Source of the DNA: Pseudomonadota bacterium
GTDB lineage: Bacteria > Pseudomonadota > Gammaproteobacteria > Burkholderiales > Thiobacillaceae
Reading direction: 5' to 3'
Assembly: GCA_021802555.1 (NCBI GenBank)
Contig: JAJZRU010000009.1
Span: forward strand, 1-64,000
DNA: 64,000 nt
Made by a program: the position numbers and the translations under genes. The notes below the pieces were generated by a model. The model saw only the letters and a program-made list of their open reading frames with translations. It had not been told where the DNA came from and searched no databases. Position 1 is the stretch's first letter. Each line of letters opens with the position of its first letter. Below, one piece after another: positions 6,185-20,511 of this stretch.

Positions 6185-7612
6185 TCAGGCCAGCTTCTTT
6201 TTCAGCAGGTTGTTGACCTGGGCAGGATTGGCGCGCCCCTTGGTGGCTTTCATGACCTGTCCCACCAGGGCATTGAAGGCCTTTTCCTTGCCGGCACGGA
6301 ACTCTTCCACAGATTTCGGGTTGGCGGCCAGCACCTGTTCCACGATCTGCTCGATTTCCGCACCGTCGCTGACCTGGCGCAATCCTCTGGCATCGATGAC
6401 GGCATCGACATCGTCCTCGCCTGCCCACAAGGCTTCGAACACTTGCTTGGCAAGTTTGCCGGAAAGCGTGCCGTCATGGATGCGCGCGATCAGCTTGGCC
6501 AACTGCGCCGCAGAAACCGGGCTTTGGGCGATATCGATGTCGGCTTTGTTCAGAGCTCCGGCCAGCTCGCCCATGACCCAGTTGGCGGCCAACTTGCCTT
6601 GGTTGCAGGCAGCGGCGACCTCCTCGAAATAAGCGGACGGGGCGCGCGAGCCGGTGAGCACGACAGCATCGTAAGGCGACAGACCGTACTGCTGCTGAAA
6701 CCGGGCCTGCATGGCCTCGGGCAGTTCGGGCATTTGCGCCCGCGTTGCCTCGATCCAGTCTTCGCTGATCTCCAAAGGGAGCAGGTCGGGGTCGGGGAAA
6801 TAGCGGTAGTCGTGGGCGTCTTCCTTGCTGCGCATCGTCCGCGTCTCGTTCTTGTCCGGATCGTAGAGGCGGGTTTCCTGGCGTACCGTGCCGCCGTCCT
6901 CGATCAGCTCGATCTGCCTGCGCGCTTCGTAGCGGATGGCCGCTTCCAGAAAGCGGAAAGAGTTGAGGTTCTTGATCTCGCAGCGCGTGCCGAGCTCTGC
7001 CTGGCCCAGCGGCCGCACGGACACATTGGCGTCCACGCGGAAACTGCCTTCCTGCATGTTGCCGTCGCAGATGCCTATCCAGGTCACCAGGGTGTGCAGG
7101 GTGCGCGCGTAGGCCACGGCTTCTTCGGCCGAGCGCAGGTCCGGCTCGGAGACGATTTCCAGCAAAGGGGTGCCGGCGCGGTTGAGGTCGATGCCGGTCA
7201 TGCCATGAAAATCCTCGTGCAGGGACTTCCCGGCGTCTTCCTCCAGATGGGCACGCGTGATGCGTATGGTTTTTTCGCTTTCGCCCACGCGGATTTTCAG
7301 AATGCCGCGCTCCACCACGGGGAGTTCGTACTGGCTGATCTGGTAGCCCTTGGGCAGGTCCGGATAGAAGTAATTCTTGCGCGCGAAAACGGAGCGCCGG
7401 TTGATGGCGGCGTTGACGGCCAAGCCGAAGCGGATGGCCTTGTGCACCGCCTCCTTGTTGAGCACGGGCAGCACGCCGGGCAGCGCGATGTCGATGCCGC
7501 AGGCCTGGGTGTTGGGCGCGGCGCCGAATGCGGTGCCGGCGGCGGAGAAGATTTTCGAGGCGGTGGAGAGCTGGGTGTGCACCTCCAGCCCGATGACGGT
7601 TTCCCACTGCAT
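6185..7612 (-). CDS. gatB: Asp-tRNA(Asn)/Glu-tRNA(Gln) amidotransferase subunit B
   Basis: GatB binds the misacylated tRNA and phosphorylates the Glu or Asp attached to it, so that ammonia from GatA can form Gln-tRNA or Asn-tRNA. The 475-residue protein opens [13 protein letters not shown], the hallmark start of the kinase domain. It continues with [12 protein letters not shown] and [14 protein letters not shown], and ends in the helical tail domain ([16 protein letters not shown]). The frame stays open upstream of the ATG, but family length and the 1-bp gap after gatA fix the start at 7612. It is the last gene of a gatC-gatA-gatB operon. Its presence indicates the indirect route to Gln-tRNA and/or Asn-tRNA. 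Confidence 0.97.
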
Positions 7613-7613
7613 C

Positions 7614-9068
7614 TCAGTATCCTTGCGGCTTGCGTGCGTGCCAGTCGGTTGCCAGCTGGTATTGATGGGCGACATTGAGCATCTTCGCCTCGGAAAAATA
7701 ATCGCCGACCAGTTGCAGGCCGATGGGCAGGCCTTTTGAATCGAAGCCGCACGGCAGCGACATGCCCGGCAGGCCGGCGAGATTGGCGGGGATGGTATAG
7801 AGGTCGTTGAGATACATCTGCACGGGGTCGTCGGCTTTGGCGCCGAGTTTGAACGCCGTGTTGGGCGCGGTCGGGCCGGCGATGACGTCGCAGACTTTGA
7901 ACGCATCGCCGAAGTCGTGCGCAATGAGGCGGCGGATTTTCTGCGCCTGCAGGTAGTAGGCATCGTAGTAGCCGGCGGACAGCACGTAGGTGCCGATGAG
8001 GATGCGCCGCTTGACTTCGGCGCCGAAGCCTTGCGCCCGAGTCTTGCAGTACATGTCGTCCAGGTCGGCGTACTCGGGCGCGCGGTAGCCATAGCGCACG
8101 CCATCGAAGCGCGCGAGGTTGGATGAGGCCTCGGCCGGCGCAAGCACGTAGTACACCGGGATCGCCAAGCCGGCGCTGGCGAGCGTAACTTCGGCGGTGG
8201 TTGCGCCGAGCTTCTTCAACTCATCCACGGCGGCCAGCACCGCGGCGGCGACCTCCGAGTCGAGCCCGGCGGCGAAGAACTCCCTCGGCAGGCCGATGCG
8301 CAGGCCGGACAGCGGCTTATCCAGATCGCGGGCGTAATCTTCGGGAGGCCGCTCCAGGCTGGTCGAGTCCAGCGGGTCGAAGCCGGCCATCGCGTTCAGG
8401 AGCAAGGCGCAGTCTTCCGCCGTTTTTGCCATCGGCCCGGCTTGATCGAGGCTGGACGCAAAGGCGATCATGCCGTAGCGCGAGCAGATGCCGTAAGTGG
8501 GCTTGACGCCGGTGATGCCGCAGAGCGCCGCGGGCTGGCGGATGGAGCCGCCGGTGTCCGTGCCGGTGGCGGCGGGCGCCAGGCGCGCGGCGACGGCGGC
8601 GGCCGAACCGCCGGAGGAGCCGCCGGGCACCATTTGGTCGTTCCAGGGGTTTTTCACCGGGCCGTAGAAGCTGGTTTCGTTGGACGAGCCCATGGCGAAT
8701 TCGTCCATATTGGTCTTGCCCAGATTGACCGCGCCGGCCTGCTTGAATTTGGCGATGACGGTCGCGTCATAGGGGGCGACGAAATTGGACAGCATTTTCG
8801 ACCCGCAGGTGGTGAGCCAGCCGTCGGCGCAGAAGATGTCCTTCTGCGCGAGGGGGATGCCGGTGAGCGGGCCGGCCCTGTCGGCGGCGCGCAGGTCGTC
8901 GGCGCGCCGCGCTTCCGCCAGGGTGCGTTCGCGATCGACGGTAATGAAGGCGTTGATCCTGCCGTTATAGGCGTCGATGCGGCGCAGGAACTCCTGCGCG
9001 AGTTCCGCGGCGGACAGCTTGCCGGCCGCGAGTAGGGAGGACAGCGTTTTGACGGTGGCGTCGATCAT
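7614..9068 (-). CDS. gatA: Asp-tRNA(Asn)/Glu-tRNA(Gln) amidotransferase subunit A
   Basis: GatA is the glutaminase of the GatCAB complex and supplies ammonia to GatB. The 484-residue amidase-signature protein has the Ser-cisSer-Lys triad at K76 (PLAQKDIF), S151 (GGSSGGS) and S175 ([11 protein letters not shown]). The spacing is the same as in characterised GatA proteins. It follows gatC by 4 bp and precedes gatB by 1 bp, so the three subunits are co-translated. Confidence 0.97.
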
Positions 9069-9072
9069 CGTT

Positions 9073-9360
9073 TTATTCGATCACCCTGGGCACGAGATAG
9101 AGGCCCGCTTCCACGGCCGGCGCGACGGCCTGGAACTTTTCCCGCTGGTTGGGTTCTGTGGCCAGATCGGCGCGCAGGCGCTGGGCCAGTTCTCCAGCGT
9201 GGGCCATGGGGGCCACTCCGGCGGTGTCGGCCGCCTGCATTTCCTCGATGAGTCTGAAAATCCCGTTCAATTGGTCGCGCAACGCCGCGGCTTCCGAATT
9301 GGTGACGCGGATGCGCGCCAGGCGGGCGATGCGCTGGACGTCGGACAGGGCAAGGGACAT
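9073..9360 (-). CDS. gatC: Asp-tRNA(Asn)/Glu-tRNA(Gln) amidotransferase subunit C
   Basis: GatC is the small clamp subunit that holds GatA and GatB together. The 95-residue protein begins [13 protein letters not shown] and has the [12 protein letters not shown] and LRADLATEP segments expected of the family, at normal length. It is the first gene of the gatCAB operon and is divergent from mreB. The 101-bp gap must hold both promoters; on the minus strand TATGAT is a candidate -10 box about 30 bp upstream. Confidence 0.95.
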
Positions 9361-9458
9361 ATTTCGGGCATGTTGCGGGGGCTGCTTAGGTTATCATATT
9401 CGTTTATTCCCGTATTAGCGGCGCTCGGCGCCGGATTTTTCCAACTGGCTCGGCGTAA

Positions 9459-10505
<1,047 letters not shown>

Positions 10506-10533
10506 AACCGAGCGTCGGCCGCAGGATCCTGCC

Positions 10534-11370
10534 ATGGCAGCGCCCGGACAGGTAATGTTCGCCCGGCGCTTGTCGCCGGCGCTGCGTCTGATTTTCTGGG
10601 TGGCCTTGTCATTGGCGATCATGGTGCTGGACAGCCGTCTGGATTCGCTGGGCTGGCTGCGCAGCGGCCTGGCGTCCGTCCTCTATCCCGTGCAGGTCGC
10701 TACGCGTGTTCCCTTGCAGTGGGTCGGGACGATAGGGGGGTTTTTTGTCCGCCATGGCGAATTGCTGCGGGACAACCGCCAGCTCGCTCAGGAATTGCGC
10801 CGGGCCCGCGCCGGGCTTCTGCTGCAAAGCCAGTTGGCACAGGAGAACGCTCATTTGCGCGCGCTGCTCGACCTCAAGCGCAGCGCAGCTCACGAGCTGA
10901 TCGCGGTGCGCGTCATCGGCGAAAACAACGACCCCTTTTCCCAGCGCGTGGAGATAGACAAGGGCACCCGCGACGGCATTCGGGCGGGCTGGCCGGTGCT
11001 CGACGAGCGTGGCCTGGTCGGACAGATTACGCGGGCCTATCCGTTCAGCAGCGAGGTCAGTCTCATCACGGATCGCGCCGAAGTGGTGCCGGTGCAGGAT
11101 TTGCGCAGCGGCCTGCGCCTGCTGCTTTATGGCACGGGCTCCGGGGTGGAGCTGCGCTACCTGTCCCAGGGCGTGGACGTCAAACCGGGCGATCGGCTGG
11201 AGACCTCAGGCATGGACGGCGTCTATCCCGCCGGCGTACCGGTCGCCTGGGTGCGGCGCGTGGTGCGCCATGCATCCAGCCCTTACCTGGGCATCGACTG
11301 TGTGCCTTTCGCCGGCCTGGACAGCGGCCGCACCTTTTTCGTCGTCACGCCGGGCGGGAAGAAGCCATGA
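10534..11370 (+). CDS. mreC: Rod shape-determining protein MreC
   Basis: MreC is a bitopic inner-membrane protein whose periplasmic part binds and activates PBP2. The 278-residue sequence has one membrane helix near the N-terminus (LIFWVALSLAIMVLD), a coiled coil (about 70-110, NRQLAQELRRARAGLLLQSQ), then the beta-barrel MreC domain ending in FFVVTPGGKKP. ATG 10534 is chosen; ATG 10555 (MFARRLS) would remove seven residues and is plausible. The mreD start overlaps its stop codon (ATGA). Confidence 0.95.
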   Translation: MAAPGQVMFARRLSPALRLIFWVALSLAIMVLDSRLDSLGWLRSGLASVLYPVQVATRVPLQWVGTIGGFFVRHGELLRDNRQLAQELRRARAGLLLQSQLAQENAHLRALLDLKRSAAHELIAVRVIGENNDPFSQRVEIDKGTRDGIRAGWPVLDERGLVGQITRAYPFSSEVSLITDRAEVVPVQDLRSGLRLLLYGTGSGVELRYLSQGVDVKPGDRLETSGMDGVYPAGVPVAWVRRVVRHASSPYLGIDCVPFAGLDSGRTFFVVTPGGKKP

Positions 11371-11858
11371 TGGGCGCCGGCCAGCGCGGCGAGGGTTCCG
11401 GCGGCTGGGGTGTAATCCTGGCGAGCCTGTTCGTCGCCCTGATCTTGCGCACGCTGCCCTGGTCCGGCTGGGGCTTGTGGCTGCGGCCGGATTTTCTGCT
11501 GGTTGCCGTGCTGTTCTGGGCGCATCGCGCGCCGGCGCGCGTGGGTCTCGGGCTGGCCTGGCTGCTCGGGCTGCTCACCGACTTCCAGCAAGGCATCGTA
11601 CTGGGCCAGTATGCACTGGCCTACGTGCTGGCGGTCTATCTGGTGCAGCTTTGGCAGCGCCGCCTCGCGGTGTTCAGCCTGCCGCAGCAGAGCCTGCATA
11701 TCTTCGCGGTGCTGCTGCTGGTGCAGGTGGTGGCGCTGGCGACGGGATGGATTTCCGGCCGGCCCCCGGTGGACGGCCTGAGTTTTCTTTCAACGATCAG
11801 CGGAGCCCTGCTATGGTACGGGCTCATGCTGGGGAGCCGTACCCGCTTTGCCGCGTGA
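11367..11858 (+). CDS. mreD: Rod shape-determining protein MreD
   Basis: A 163-residue inner-membrane protein with about five hydrophobic segments, of normal length for MreD. The segments WLRPDFLLVAVLFWAHRAP and GLLTDFQQGIVLGQYALAY are typical of the family. It belongs to the elongasome with MreC, RodA and PBP2. The start ATG 11367 overlaps the mreC stop by four bases; ATG 11370 is an equally good start one codon later. The mrdA gene follows after 6 bp. Confidence 0.93.
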   Translation: MMGAGQRGEGSGGWGVILASLFVALILRTLPWSGWGLWLRPDFLLVAVLFWAHRAPARVGLGLAWLLGLLTDFQQGIVLGQYALAYVLAVYLVQLWQRRLAVFSLPQQSLHIFAVLLLVQVVALATGWISGRPPVDGLSFLSTISGALLWYGLMLGSRTRFAA

Positions 11859-11864
11859 TCTGCC

Positions 11865-13769
11865 ATGAACTGGTCCGGCGGCGAACTGAAGAATCTGCGC
11901 GCCGAACTGGCCGCCTTCCGACGCCGCCTGCACGCCGGCGCCATCCTCATCGCGGTGCTGGTGCTGCTGCTGTTGGCACGCCTCTACGACCTGCAGGTGC
12001 GTGACCACGGCCACTACGCCAGTCTGGCGGAAAGCAACCGCACCAGCCTGATACCTGTGGCGGCGCCGCGCGGTCTGATCTACGACGACAAGGGCAAAAT
12101 TCTGGCCGACAACTATTCGGCCTACACCCTGGAAATCAACCCTTCGAAGGCGGGCAATCTCAAACGCACGCTTGGCGAGATCGGCCGCCTCATCGAAATC
12201 ACGCCCGCGCATCTGCGCCGTTTCCGCGAACTGCTGGCGGAAAACCGCTCGTTCGCCACGGTGCCGCTGAAAAGCCACCTCAGCGACAAGGAGGTGGCCA
12301 TACTGGCGGCCAATCTGTACCGTTTGCCGGGCGTGGAAGTGAAGGCGCGCCTGTTCCGCAATTATCCCTACGGGAGCGAGTTCTCCCACAGCATCGGCTA
12401 CATCGGGCGCATCAACGATCGCGAGCTTGCCGCGCTCAAGCGGGAAGGTCGCCTGGACGATTACCGCGGCAGCGAGCATATCGGCAAGACCGGGCTGGAG
12501 CTGCAGTATGAAAACCTGCTGCACGGCAAGCCTGGCTACGAAGAGATGGAGACGGATGCCTACGGCCGCGCGGTGAAGGTGCTGGGGCGCGTGGCGCCCG
12601 TGCCGGGGGACGATTTGGAGCTCAACCTGGACCAGGGCCTGCAGCGCATCGCCGACCAAGCCTTCGGCGACCGCAAGGGCGCGCTGGTGGCCATCAACCC
12701 CAACAACGGCGCGGTGCTCGCGCTGGTCAGCCGGCCGGGCTTCGATCCCAACCTGTTCGTCGACGGCATCGATCCGCAAACTTGGGAGGAACTGCTCGAT
12801 TCGCCTGGGCGCCCGCTGGTGAACCGAGCCGCCTACAGCGTCTACCCCCCCGGCTCCACCATCAAACCTTTCCTCGCCATCGCAGCGTTGGAAATGGGCG
12901 TGCGCACGCCCAGCTACACCATTTTCGACCCCGGCTGGTATTCCCTGCCGGGTTCCAGACATCGTTTCCGCGACTGGAAGGCCGGCGGCCATGGCGTGGT
13001 CGACATGCACAAGGCCATCGTCCAATCTTGCGACACTTATTTCTATCGCGTGGCAGTGGATATGGGCATGAAGCGCCTGGATGCCTATATGCCGCTCTTC
13101 GGCTTCGGCGCCAAGACGGGCATCGACCTGCCGGGCGAGTCCGCGGGACTGGTGCCCTCGCCGGCGTGGAAGGAGCGGCGCTTTCACCGGCCGTGGTTTC
13201 CCGGCGAGACGGTCATCTCCGGCATAGGCCAGGGCTACTGGCAGGTCACGCCCCTGCAGCTGGCGGTGGCCACGGCGGCGCTCGCCAATGGCGGAACCAT
13301 CTACAAGCCCGAACTGCTCAAGGCGGTGCGCAAAGCCGGCAGCCGCGCCTGGCAGCCCGTCGCACCGGTGGTGGTGCGGCATATCCCCATCAGCGCTGCA
13401 GATCTGGCGGTGGTGCGCGATGCCATGATGGATGTAGTCAAGCCGGGCGGCACCGCGCCCACGGCCTTCGCCGGCGTGTCTTATGCCGTTGCCGCCAAGA
13501 CCGGCACTGCGCAGGTGACCGGAGTGGCGCAGAACGCAAGATACGATGCCGGCAAACTCGCCATCCAGTATCGCGACAACGCTTTGTTCATCGCCTTCGC
13601 TCCTGCCGAAAAGCCGCGTATCGCCGTCGCCGTCATCGTGGAAAACGGCGGAGAGGGGGGGGTGGCGGCGGCGCCCATTGCGCGCAAGGTGCTGGACTAC
13701 TATCTTCTCGGAAAGAAGCCGCCGGCCGGCACGACAGGCAAGATCCATGATGCGCTCCCACACGATTAG
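11865..13769 (+). CDS. mrdA: Peptidoglycan transpeptidase PBP2
   Basis: PBP2 is the class B penicillin-binding protein that cross-links peptidoglycan during cell elongation, working with RodA. The 634-residue protein has an N-terminal membrane anchor (about 24-40), a dimerisation/pedestal domain, then a transpeptidase domain. The latter shows the three active-site motifs: S331-T-I-K334, S388-C-D and K545-T-G. Length fits the family. Its end overlaps the rodA start by 23 bp, so the two partners are translationally coupled. Confidence 0.97.
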   Translation: MNWSGGELKNLRAELAAFRRRLHAGAILIAVLVLLLLARLYDLQVRDHGHYASLAESNRTSLIPVAAPRGLIYDDKGKILADNYSAYTLEINPSKAGNLKRTLGEIGRLIEITPAHLRRFRELLAENRSFATVPLKSHLSDKEVAILAANLYRLPGVEVKARLFRNYPYGSEFSHSIGYIGRINDRELAALKREGRLDDYRGSEHIGKTGLELQYENLLHGKPGYEEMETDAYGRAVKVLGRVAPVPGDDLELNLDQGLQRIADQAFGDRKGALVAINPNNGAVLALVSRPGFDPNLFVDGIDPQTWEELLDSPGRPLVNRAAYSVYPPGSTIKPFLAIAALEMGVRTPSYTIFDPGWYSLPGSRHRFRDWKAGGHGVVDMHKAIVQSCDTYFYRVAVDMGMKRLDAYMPLFGFGAKTGIDLPGESAGLVPSPAWKERRFHRPWFPGETVISGIGQGYWQVTPLQLAVATAALANGGTIYKPELLKAVRKAGSRAWQPVAPVVVRHIPISAADLAVVRDAMMDVVKPGGTAPTAFAGVSYAVAAKTGTAQVTGVAQNARYDAGKLAIQYRDNALFIAFAPAEKPRIAVAVIVENGGEGGVAAAPIARKVLDYYLLGKKPPAGTTGKIHDALPHD

Positions 13770-17144: not shown

Positions 17145-17804
17145 ATGGGCCATGACATGGGCGCCGCGAACGCCTGCCGGATTGAGACGGGGCGGGCGGT
17201 GCAGGCGGTGGTCAGGAGCCTCGGACGCCTGGAATACGTCCCCGCCTGGCAGGCCATGCAGGCGTACACCGCGGCGCGCGGGGCGGCCGGCGCGGACGAA
17301 TTGTGGGTGCTGGAGCATCCGGCCGTTTACACCTTGGGCCAGGCGGGCCGGTCCGAGCATCTGCTGGCGGCCAATGACATTCCCCTGGTGCGCTGCGACC
17401 GCGGCGGGCAGATCACCTATCATGGTCCTGGCCAGGCAGTGGTCTATGCGCTGATCGACCTGCGGCGGCGCGGCTACGGCGTCCGCGAACTGGTCCACCG
17501 CATCGAGCAGGCGGTTGTCGATCTGCTGGGCGATTTCGCCATCGCGGGCGAGCGCCGCCCGGGGGCGCCGGGCGTCTATGTGGCGGGCGCCAAGATCGCC
17601 GCGCTGGGTCTGCGCGTCAGGCACGGCTGCACCTACCACGGCGTGGCGCTCAACGTCGACGGCGATCTGGCGCCTTTCGCGGCCATCAACCCCTGCGGCT
17701 ATCCGGGCTTGCCGGTCACCCGCCTGCTCGACCTGGGTGTCACCCTGAGCGTGGCCGAGGCCGGGGTGCGGCTCGCGGCATGCCTGGAGCGGCGGCTGGC
17801 ATAG
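17145..17804 (+). CDS. lipB: Octanoyl-[acyl carrier protein]:protein octanoyltransferase
   Basis: LipB transfers octanoyl groups from ACP to the lipoyl domains of 2-oxoacid dehydrogenases and GcvH, the first step of lipoate synthesis. The 219-residue protein shows the [12 protein letters not shown] motif (about 86-97), the catalytic Lys in [10 protein letters not shown] (K150) and the catalytic Cys in AINPCGYPG (C184). The first 20 or so residues are poorly conserved, so a slightly later start is possible. A lipA gene, often next door, is not in this stretch. Confidence 0.95.
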
Positions 17805-17889: not shown

Positions 17890-19005
17890 ATGGAAACCAC
17901 TCACAACGACGCCAGCCGCGTCATGCATTCCATCATTCAGCGCATCGCCACGGGCCCCGACCTGTCCAAGGACATCAGCCGCGAAGAGGCGTATCTGGGC
18001 ACGCGCGCCATCATCGAAAACCAGATCGACCCGGTGCAGGCGGGCATTTATTTCATCGCCTTGCGCATGAAGCGCGAAACCCAGGACGAGAACCGCGGCG
18101 TGCTCGATGCGGTCGTGGCGACGACGCGACGGGTGACTGCCCAGGTCGACGAGGTGGTGGACATCGGCGATCCTTACGATGGCTACAACCGCTGTTTGCC
18201 GGCGGCGCCATTTCTTGGACCGGTGCTGGCCGAATGCGGGGTGACCGCTGTGGCCCACGGCCTCGACCGTGTGGGGCCCAAATACGGCGTCACCGCCCGC
18301 CATGTGCTCGCCGCCGCGGGCCTGGACGCGGACCTCGATCCGGGGGCGGCGGCGCGACGCCTGGCTGATCCGGACATCGGCTGGACTTATCTGGATCAGG
18401 CGCAATACAACCCCGCCCTGCACGAACTGGTCAGCTTGCGCGCGCGCATGATCAAGCGCCAGGCGCTCACCACCGTGGAAGTGCTGGCCAAGCCCATCGT
18501 CGGCCGCAAGAAAACCCACTTCGTCACCGGCTACGTACACAAGCCCTATCCGCCCATCTATGCCGATCTTGCGCGCCAGGCCGGATTTGACAGCGCACTC
18601 ATCGTGCGCGGCGTGGAAGGGGGCGTGATCCCATCGCTGCGCCAGGCGGGTAAAGCTTATTACTACCGCGACCCGCGCGCGGAAGGCGAGATCGAGCTGG
18701 CCATCGATCCGGCGGCCCTGGGCATCCGGCAGGAAGTGCGCGCCGTGCCTTTCCCCGCGGGCCTGCCGGTGCGCAAGGCGGAGGACGAGGTCGCCATTGC
18801 CGTGGACGTGCCGGCCACCGCCAAAGCGGCAGCCGAAGCTGGGCTGGCGGCACTCAACGGCCGGCAGGGGCCGACCTACGATTCCCTGGTGCTGGGCGCG
18901 GGCCTCATCCTGCATCACCTTGGCCGCGCCCCCGGACTTGCCGAGGCGGCCGAGCAGGTGCGCGCGGCGCTCGATTCTGGGCGCGCCGCGCGGCGGGTGA
19001 AATGA
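17890..19005 (+). CDS. TrpD-fold (glycosyltransferase family 3-like) protein lacking the anthranilate PRT motifs
   Basis: The 371-residue protein has the helical N-terminal domain and Rossmann-like body of the TrpD/nucleoside-phosphorylase superfamily. A true TrpD has GTGGD for PRPP binding; here the same place reads DIGDPYDGYNR (91-101). The KHGNR loop has become HGLDRVGPKYG (123-133), and the DE metal pair of the third motif has become VEGGVIPSL (242-250). These changes resemble the TrpD2/YbiB branch, whose E. coli member binds nucleic acid rather than making tryptophan. The stop overlaps the start of a Rieske ferredoxin gene by 4 bp, so the two should work together. Substrate unknown; not the tryptophan enzyme. 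Confidence 0.8.
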   Translation: METTHNDASRVMHSIIQRIATGPDLSKDISREEAYLGTRAIIENQIDPVQAGIYFIALRMKRETQDENRGVLDAVVATTRRVTAQVDEVVDIGDPYDGYNRCLPAAPFLGPVLAECGVTAVAHGLDRVGPKYGVTARHVLAAAGLDADLDPGAAARRLADPDIGWTYLDQAQYNPALHELVSLRARMIKRQALTTVEVLAKPIVGRKKTHFVTGYVHKPYPPIYADLARQAGFDSALIVRGVEGGVIPSLRQAGKAYYYRDPRAEGEIELAIDPAALGIRQEVRAVPFPAGLPVRKAEDEVAIAVDVPATAKAAAEAGLAALNGRQGPTYDSLVLGAGLILHHLGRAPGLAEAAEQVRAALDSGRAARRVK

Positions 19006-19316
19006 TGGCCGCATACATCGCGGTGGCTCGGGCGGACGAACTCAAGCCGGCGCAGATGAAGCGCGTCGAGGTGGCGGGCCGCAGACTCCTGTTGTGCAAC
19101 AGCGAGGGGCGCTATTTCTGCGTGGACGAGATGTGCAGCCATGAGGACTATTCGCTTTATCTGGGCTGCATCAAGGACGGCAAGATCAAGTGTTCCCTGC
19201 ATGGCAGCTATTTCGATCTGGCGAGCGGCGAGCCTACCTGCGAACCCGCGGACGAGCCCATCCGCACGTATGCCGTAAAAGTCGAAGACGGGCAGGTGTG
19301 GGTGGCGGCGGCATAG
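19002..19316 (+). CDS. Rieske-type [2Fe-2S] ferredoxin
   Basis: A 104-residue soluble Rieske protein. The two cluster-binding boxes are C45-S-H47 (EMCSHEDYS) and C64-S-L-H67 (IKCSLHGSYFDL), followed by the usual ASGEP segment. There is no signal or membrane helix, so it is a cytoplasmic electron carrier like those of dioxygenases or NirD. No oxygenase gene is nearby. It is translationally coupled to the TrpD-like gene (ATGA overlap), which makes that protein its likely partner. ATG 19005 is an alternative start one codon later. Confidence 0.92.
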   Translation: MMAAYIAVARADELKPAQMKRVEVAGRRLLLCNSEGRYFCVDEMCSHEDYSLYLGCIKDGKIKCSLHGSYFDLASGEPTCEPADEPIRTYAVKVEDGQVWVAAA

Positions 19317-19431
19317 GGCGCGGGCGGCGCGTGTTCCGCGTGCAAACGCACAAAGACTCCTGCGCAGGGCATAAATACGCCGGCCTCGAACTTGCTCGCG
19401 CATTCCGCTAAGCTTGCGCGCGGAGGTCATC

Positions 19432-20511
19432 ATGAACGAGCAGGAAATCCGCGAGATCCGCATCAACCCCATCATCCCCGCCGAGTCGGTGCTGGTGGCG
19501 ACGGCGCGCTCCATGCGCCCCAAGAAAGCCGAAGACCTGGCGCCGCGCGATACGCGCAAGCATGTGGACACCTGCCCCTTTTGCAAGGGCAACGAGCACA
19601 AGACGCCGCCGGAGATCTTGCGCCTGCCGGAAGGCGGGGAGTGGGAAGTGCGCCTGGTGCCCAATCTGTACCCGGTGCTGGGAGACGACCGCCAGGAGGC
19701 GAGCTTCGCCTTCGGTTTGCAGCAGGCCATCGACGGCTACGGCCGCCACGAAGTGTTCATCGACCATCCGCATCACGGCGCCGCCGTCCATGAAATGGCG
19801 GAGGCGCATCTTGCCCAGGTCCTGCTGGCCTATCGGCTGCGCATGGCGCAGCTGTTCGCCGCCGACCCGCGCCTCAAGTATGTCCTGGTGTTCAAGAATT
19901 TCGGACCTGCCGCGGGTGCTTCCATCCCGCATACCCACAGCCAGATCATCGCCATGCCGGTGGTGCCGGAAAACGTCGAGGCCGAGGCGCGCAATTCGGC
20001 CGAGTACTTTCGCCGGCATCATCACTGCATCTTCTGTACGCTCATAGATGAGGCGCTGACGTTCGAGGCGGCGATCTACGACCGAACCTCGGGTTCGGTG
20101 CGGCGCAAGATCAGCGTCGGCCAGTACATCGTGGAAAGAGGGCGGCACTTCATCGCCATCAAGCCCTTCGCCAGCCGCTACGAATGGGAGGTGCACATCC
20201 TCCCCTTGCAGCACCAGGCGGATTTTCTCGACGCCACCGACGAGGAACTCGCCGACCTGGCCGCGGTGCTGCGCCGCACCATGGCCCGGCTGGATGCCGT
20301 GATCGGCGGCGCCCAGTACAATTTTTTCCTGCATTCCCTGCCCCATGACGCGCAGCGCGAGCAGCATGGCGCCTCCTATCACTGGCATCTGGAAATCTGC
20401 CCGCGCACATCCATACCGACGGGTTTTGAACTGGGCTCGGGTTTGTTCGTCAATACCATCAGCCCGGAAGCGGCCGCCGAGCGGCTGCGCAGGGCGGAAA
20501 TCACCCTATGA
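19432..20511 (+). CDS. galT: Galactose-1-phosphate uridylyltransferase family protein
   Basis: GalT-type enzymes exchange UMP or another nucleotide between sugar phosphates (HIT-superfamily transferases). The 359-residue protein has a zinc site beginning CPFC (C48, C51) and the catalytic H167-T-H169-S-Q171, with the nucleophilic His second. A second C-x2-C-like HCIFC segment follows at about 205-209. The start ATG 19432 is set by a GGAGG site 6 bp upstream. No galK or galE is adjacent. Its place beside the TrpD-like/Rieske pair and its divergence from E. coli GalT leave the true sugar or nucleotide open. Confidence 0.85.
   Translation: MNEQEIREIRINPIIPAESVLVATARSMRPKKAEDLAPRDTRKHVDTCPFCKGNEHKTPPEILRLPEGGEWEVRLVPNLYPVLGDDRQEASFAFGLQQAIDGYGRHEVFIDHPHHGAAVHEMAEAHLAQVLLAYRLRMAQLFAADPRLKYVLVFKNFGPAAGASIPHTHSQIIAMPVVPENVEAEARNSAEYFRRHHHCIFCTLIDEALTFEAAIYDRTSGSVRRKISVGQYIVERGRHFIAIKPFASRYEWEVHILPLQHQADFLDATDEELADLAAVLRRTMARLDAVIGGAQYNFFLHSLPHDAQREQHGASYHWHLEICPRTSIPTGFELGSGLFVNTISPEAAAERLRRAEITL

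Follow-up and report, generated by a model that had tools for sequence, protein, structure and literature searches.

The TrpDL–Rieske gene pair

The window, the whole stretch of 64,000 nucleotides analysed here, comes from a member of the Thiobacillaceae and contains two genes that encode a protein with a phosphoribosyltransferase fold, TrpDL, and a soluble Rieske ferredoxin (Table 1). The TrpDL reading frame starts with an ATG at 17890 and ends with a TGA at 19003–19005, while the Rieske frame runs from an ATG at 19002 to a TAG at 19314–19316. Bases 19002–19005 (ATGA) are common to the stop of the first gene and the start of the second, and both reading frames and this four-base overlap agree with the original prediction. 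The base composition of the pair resembles that of the neighbouring genes.

Table 1. Features of the TrpDL–Rieske locus, in coordinates of the window
Feature	Position	Strand	Description	Basis
lipB	17145..17804	+	Upstream of TrpDL by 85 bp; outside the conserved unit	
TrpDL	17890..19005	+	Class III phosphoribosyltransferase-fold protein, 371 aa	Pfam, tree, alignment, structure model
TrpDL residues 92-110 IGDPYDGYNRCLPAAPFLG	18163..18219	+	Replaces TrpD PRPP motif GTGGD..(N)IST	Alignment
TrpDL residues 121-139 VAHGLDRVGPKYGVTARHV	18250..18306	+	Replaces KHGNRSVSSKSG	Alignment and conservation
TrpDL residues 209-226 THFVTGYVHKPYPPIYAD	18514..18567	+	Clade-specific, without TrpD counterpart; xHPxY in YbiB	
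TrpDL residues 238-254 IVRGVEGGVIPSLRQAG	18601..18651	+	Replaces TrpD metal-binding ..DGLDEIS	Alignment and conservation
Rieske protein	19002..19316	+	Soluble [2Fe-2S] Rieske ferredoxin, dioxygenase-ferredoxin type, 104 aa	ORF, Pfam, sequence comparison

A TrpD fold without the TrpD motifs

Pfam recognizes two domains in TrpDL, Glycos_trans_3N and Glycos_transf_3 (PF02885 and PF00591), which score 39 and 35 bits and are both above their cut-offs (26 and 27 bits, respectively). An AlphaFold2 model made with 41 aligned sequences (pLDDT 86, pTM 0.89) matches crystal structures of TrpD with TM-scores of 0.70–0.77 by query length and 0.77–0.84 by target length, at E-values of about 1e-18 to 1e-15. 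In this model, TrpDL is predicted to have the helical bundle and alpha/beta domain of the class III phosphoribosyltransferase superfamily, and it shares its overall fold, including an N-terminal helical bundle, with TrpD (TIGR01245).

At the level of NCBIfam, every match of TrpDL and of the Rieske protein lies below the model's own cut-off. The trpD model gives TrpDL 71.7 bits (cut-off 199) and the YbiB model 87.9 bits (cut-off 185), which makes it doubtful that annotation pipelines would call the gene trpD, as had been supposed. The best score, 142.8 bits, comes from the PRK07394 TrpD-like family (NF005635), which may have a cyanobacterial nitrite-assimilation protein as a relative, but this is half of the cut-off of 287. 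As ordinary TrpD proteins obtain about equal scores with this model, the match is not specific for TrpDL, and PRK07394 was rejected as its parent family.

Alignment of TrpDL with YbiB and TrpD from E. coli, and with several representatives of both from other genomes, shows that the three substrate and metal motifs of TrpD are all lost, as originally described, and that near-invariant new motifs occupy the old active-site positions. The PRPP motif GTGGDGxxxxN aligns with DPYDGYNRCLP, the loop KHGNRSVSSKSG (KHGNRxxSSxxGS) aligns with AHGLDRVGPKYGVT (in its longer form AHGLDRVGPKYG), and the metal-binding DGLDEIS aligns with EGGVIPS, which lacks the adjacent Asp-Glu ligands. Among 115 homologues, mean conservation is 0.85–0.90 in the four blocks of Table 1 and 0.73 elsewhere in the protein. 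Residues 92–110 reach 0.90, with 9 of their 19 columns at least 97% constant, a level also found in 11 of the 18 columns of residues 209–226. In the 41-sequence alignment, the invariant residues of these blocks include polar, acidic and aromatic residues as well as basic ones.

Judged by its motifs, TrpDL would not be an anthranilate phosphoribosyltransferase, and it is hardly credible that it is an ordinary TrpD that has been misread. Although Pfam finds the same domains in both, the active-site motifs are all gone, TrpDL forms a clade of its own in the tree (see below) and its gene lies outside the trp operon. Furthermore, a second, full-strength Glycos_transf_3 gene (310 bits) is present elsewhere in the genome and, from its match to E. 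coli TrpD, is the true trpD; ordinary trpD was rejected on the basis of this second gene, the motif alignment and the tree. It is also improbable, in our view, that TrpDL transfers a phosphoribosyl or related group from another donor to another acceptor, with the Rieske protein performing a redox step on the same substrate. The fold is kept at full length, Arg184 occupies the column of a conserved TrpD arginine, and the cleft motifs still contain conserved acidic residues, all of which would suit such a transferase. However, the pyrophosphate-binding GTGGD and the Asp-Glu metal ligands are gone, the alignment with TrpD and YbiB revealed no recognizable substitute motif for metal or PRPP, and the constant neighbours include no biosynthetic gene.

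A sister clade of TrpD2/YbiB

In a maximum-likelihood tree of 42 proteins, 22 of which are TrpDL, the TrpDL proteins form one separate clade (support 99/99). This clade is sister to the TrpD2/YbiB group and apart from TrpD (99/90), and the YbiB group itself (97/94) excludes TrpDL. Due to the long branches in this tree, the sisterhood of TrpDL and TrpD2 is supported, yet not beyond doubt. The original placement in the TrpD2/YbiB branch therefore holds for the side of the tree, although TrpDL falls next to TrpD2, as its sister clade, instead of within it. TrpD2/YbiB proteins (NF006005; PDB 8bfr, 4muo) have the fold family and the absence of TrpD motifs in common with TrpDL, together with Y-[DN]-G, the R..R at the anthranilate-site helix, H-x-x-Y and EG. 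TrpDL differs from them in its other cleft motifs, its identity of about 24% to E. coli YbiB, its near-obligate Rieske partner and its distribution among sulfur oxidisers.

The kinship with YbiB gives rise to the main rival of the redox module that we propose below: TrpDL may be a TrpD2/YbiB-type binder of nucleic acid or ObgE under redox control, with the Rieske protein acting as a switch that tunes ribosome assembly or a stress response. We consider this unlikely, even though the tree places TrpDL together with YbiB and apart from TrpD, and YbiB is its best PDB match by sequence. In addition, one genus has the gene order rplU-rpmA-obgE-Rieske-TrpDL (L048, about 9859–12412, and L049), and YbiB is an ObgE interactor (PMC10123104). 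This obgE neighbourhood was nevertheless seen in that one genus, and the TrpDL branch is long and separate. The groove arginines of YbiB that matter for ObgE binding, Arg92 and Arg123 (PMC10123104), are not kept either, their columns being occupied by Asn100 and Lys131 in TrpDL; Arg101, the neighbour of Asn100, is invariant in the 41-sequence alignment. Moreover, conservation as strict as that of motifs such as DPYDGYNR and HKPYPPIY goes well beyond what nonspecific polyanion binding would appear to demand. Net charge, with a mean of -5.8 for TrpDL versus 0 to -3 for YbiB-like proteins, was discarded as a test for nucleic-acid binding, as it does not discriminate between the two.

A YbiB-type TrpD2 gene was also observed inside an apparent nitrate-assimilation operon in a genome of the same order (G035; L050, about 6665–13071), where the order is molybdopterin nitrate reductase, TrpD2, NirB-like protein and NirD-like Rieske protein. 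A Rieske gene close to one for a TrpD-fold protein is thus also seen in a different clade.

A near-obligate Rieske partner

The Rieske protein scores 65.5 bits in Pfam (cut-off 20.3); it is soluble, about 100 aa long, and has an intact cluster motif, C-x-H-(16)-C-x2-H (CSH..CSLH). Its nearest sequences are the ferredoxins of ring-hydroxylating dioxygenases, such as those for toluene, naphthalene and biphenyl (PDB 4emj, 2qpz, 1fqt), which are likewise soluble [2Fe-2S] proteins of about 105 aa with the C-x-H / C-x2-H motif. In contrast to these, the partner of TrpDL has no terminal oxygenase or reductase nearby, is tied to TrpDL and carries the clade-specific sequence C-S-H-E-D-x-S-L-x-x-G-C...I-K-C-S-L-H-G-S.

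Linkage was compared across 19 loci from the first 41 genomes, 80 from GTDB genome contigs and 20 from one purple-sulfur order; the resulting 118 loci represent about 108 distinct contigs, as about ten contigs were reached twice. All 19 loci of the first set have a Rieske neighbour. Overall, a Rieske gene adjoins TrpDL on the same strand in 114 of 118 loci, with one further locus ending at a contig edge and three lacking the gene. Of the 109 pairs measured, 80 have an overlapping stop and start; in one genus, g6 of the window's family (L048, L049), the Rieske gene comes first and TrpDL second. An apparent natural fusion of the two proteins (L127) was rejected, since an assembly gap (a run of N) joins the two frames. 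Plasmid carriage was also rejected, the only match being a distant haloarchaeal TrpD.

The two genes also come and go together. In the purple-sulfur order, TrpDL is present in 113 of 170 genomes, and the specific Rieske gene is found in 104 of these, each time beside TrpDL, and in none of the 57 genomes without TrpDL. Among the remaining nine TrpDL-positive genomes, at least two have incomplete TrpDL matches (G546, G616). In the window's family, 47 of 59 good genomes carry TrpDL, and the specific Rieske is absent from all 12 good TrpDL-negative genomes examined, in which the best other Rieske protein scores 70 bits versus at least 158 for the true partner. TrpDL and its partner are thus jointly gained and lost, and their pairing is close to obligate, far beyond chance. 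The three loci without the Rieske gene lie on intact contigs (L142, L146 and L151, in genomes G585, G626 and G527). None of these genomes has the specific Rieske elsewhere (the best other one in G527 scores 56 bits), which means that they can do without the partner or replace it. The claim that the Rieske protein is the only constant partner of TrpDL is borne out by these counts, and the opposite pattern, homologues that mostly lack a Rieske neighbour, was looked for and not found.

Ferredoxins are often shared between enzymes, and it could be that the two genes are merely co-transcribed, with the Rieske protein serving an oxygenase or reductase encoded elsewhere. Its resemblance to dioxygenase ferredoxins would fit such a role. 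We nonetheless find it quite improbable, given the absence of the specific Rieske from TrpDL-negative genomes of both order and family, and a linkage that holds while gene neighbourhoods change completely.

Changing gene neighbourhoods

No third constant gene was found around the pair among the compared loci. The neighbours vary between lipB/lipA, a sigma-54 regulator with truncated haemoglobin, agmatine genes, ccm and obgE, which indicates that the pair itself is the unit. In Thiobacillus and the window's genus, the pair follows lipB in an mreB-rodA-dacA-lipB block, and lipA comes directly after it in several Thiobacillus genomes. In other Thiobacillaceae, it is located after a PAS-sigma-54 activator and often opposite genes for a truncated haemoglobin, a Tll0287-like haem protein, a SLAC1 channel, cytochrome bd and peroxiredoxin. 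A DsrE2 gene lies just upstream in three Thiobacillus-like loci. In the purple-sulfur order, the pair is often located downstream of aguB (carbon-nitrogen hydrolase) or upstream of the ccm operon. Around the pair, redox and sulfur genes are frequent without being constant, and the surroundings suggest a redox, haem and sulfur character.

The genes lipB and galT, originally named as shared neighbours, turned out to be local: lipB accompanies the pair in Thiobacillus-like genomes only and galT only in the window's own genus. Both were rejected as functional partners and reflect local synteny. The GalT/DUF4921-like gene of the window's genus (19414–20511 in the window) follows the pair at the place where Thiobacillus has lipA; its start is uncertain, owing to a TTG start with an in-frame ATG at 19432. 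Further away, at 325–2620, two minus-strand ORFs (267 and 499 aa) apparently form an IstB/IstA insertion-sequence pair.

The sigma-54 activators upstream of TrpDL (L034, L041, L103 and others) contain a PAS domain. In L034, the activator includes a segment rich in cysteine and histidine, CYEVSHHFDRPCDQCGESCP, a possible binding site for metal, Fe-S or haem. No sigma-54 promoter (-24/-12) upstream of the pair stood out convincingly from background.

Distribution among reverse-Dsr sulfur oxidisers

TrpDL is rare at large, with 2 carriers among 398 genomes sampled across the phylum. It is found in Thiobacillus, Sulfuriferula, Gallionellales, Chromatiaceae, Thiohalocapsa, Sedimenticola and Thiogranum, as well as in many metagenome genomes, and the TrpDL–Rieske pair occurs in more than 100 bacteria with reverse Dsr. 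The reverse (oxidative) type of dsrA is presumed here from the organisms. Among TrpDL-positive genomes, dsrA is present in 51 of 53 from the window's family, in 112 of 113 from the purple-sulfur order and in 24 of 30 others, mostly metagenome assemblies. The pair is thus confined almost entirely to dsrA-bearing lineages. Conversely, TrpDL occurs in 1 of 16 dsrA-negative genomes of the purple-sulfur order, and the co-occurrence within this order gives a Fisher p of 2e-7, uncorrected for phylogeny, by which the link between dsrA and TrpDL is confounded. Inside the family, dsrA is uninformative as a discriminator, since 66 of 68 genomes have it, including all 12 high-quality genomes without TrpDL. 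In the phylum sample, only 2 of the 53 dsrA-bearing genomes carry TrpDL. Because many genomes with dsrA lack TrpDL, the pair does not belong to the core Dsr components but accompanies Dsr-type sulfur oxidation in some lineages of beta- and gammaproteobacteria.

Sulfur-oxidation genes had been expected among the neighbours. No such operon flanks the pair in the window, but the genome does carry dsrA. The link between the pair and reverse-Dsr sulfur oxidation is new and goes beyond the first reading, whose underlying observation is confirmed and whose interpretation is partly supported.

A putative redox module

As the most likely explanation, we propose that reverse-Dsr sulfur oxidisers may possess, in TrpDL and its partner, a dedicated redox module of two proteins in which a remodelled cleft accepts a specific ligand; from the sequences, we give this an even chance of being correct. 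The proposal builds on the same-strand, mostly overlapping genes, their near-obligate linkage and joint loss, the replaced TrpD motifs, the intact Rieske motif and the confinement to dsrA lineages. In place of phosphoribosyl transfer, TrpDL would now bind or convert another specific and probably anionic ligand, putatively in the same interdomain cleft that formed the old TrpD active site. The Rieske protein may dock on TrpDL either as a carrier that gives electrons to TrpDL alone or takes them from it, or as a redox switch, and the activity of the cleft could then follow the cytoplasmic redox state during sulfur oxidation. More tentatively, the pair could be a new kind of redox enzyme or redox-gated sensor built on a phosphoribosyltransferase fold with a near-obligate Rieske partner, serving cytoplasmic sulfur oxidation by reverse Dsr. 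The TrpD fold carries no redox cofactor, which leaves the need for an electron carrier unexplained and counts against a redox module; the three Rieske-less TrpDL loci and the phylogenetic confounding of the dsrA link weigh on the same side.

Both folds, the TrpD type and the Rieske type, are already known, while the pairing, the clade and its distribution appear new: no description of any of these was found in the open-access literature searched, a scope that leaves subscription journals aside. This agrees with the original view of the pair as apparently undescribed, and suggests an unstudied two-protein redox module. If our proposal is true, it would be a case of a TrpD fold gaining a redox partner, and TrpDL would bear on the role of the poorly understood TrpD2 branch. 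The pair is present in well-known sulfur oxidisers (Thiobacillus thioparus, T. denitrificans and Chromatiaceae) and may constitute an unrecognized component associated with reverse-Dsr sulfur oxidation in these organisms.
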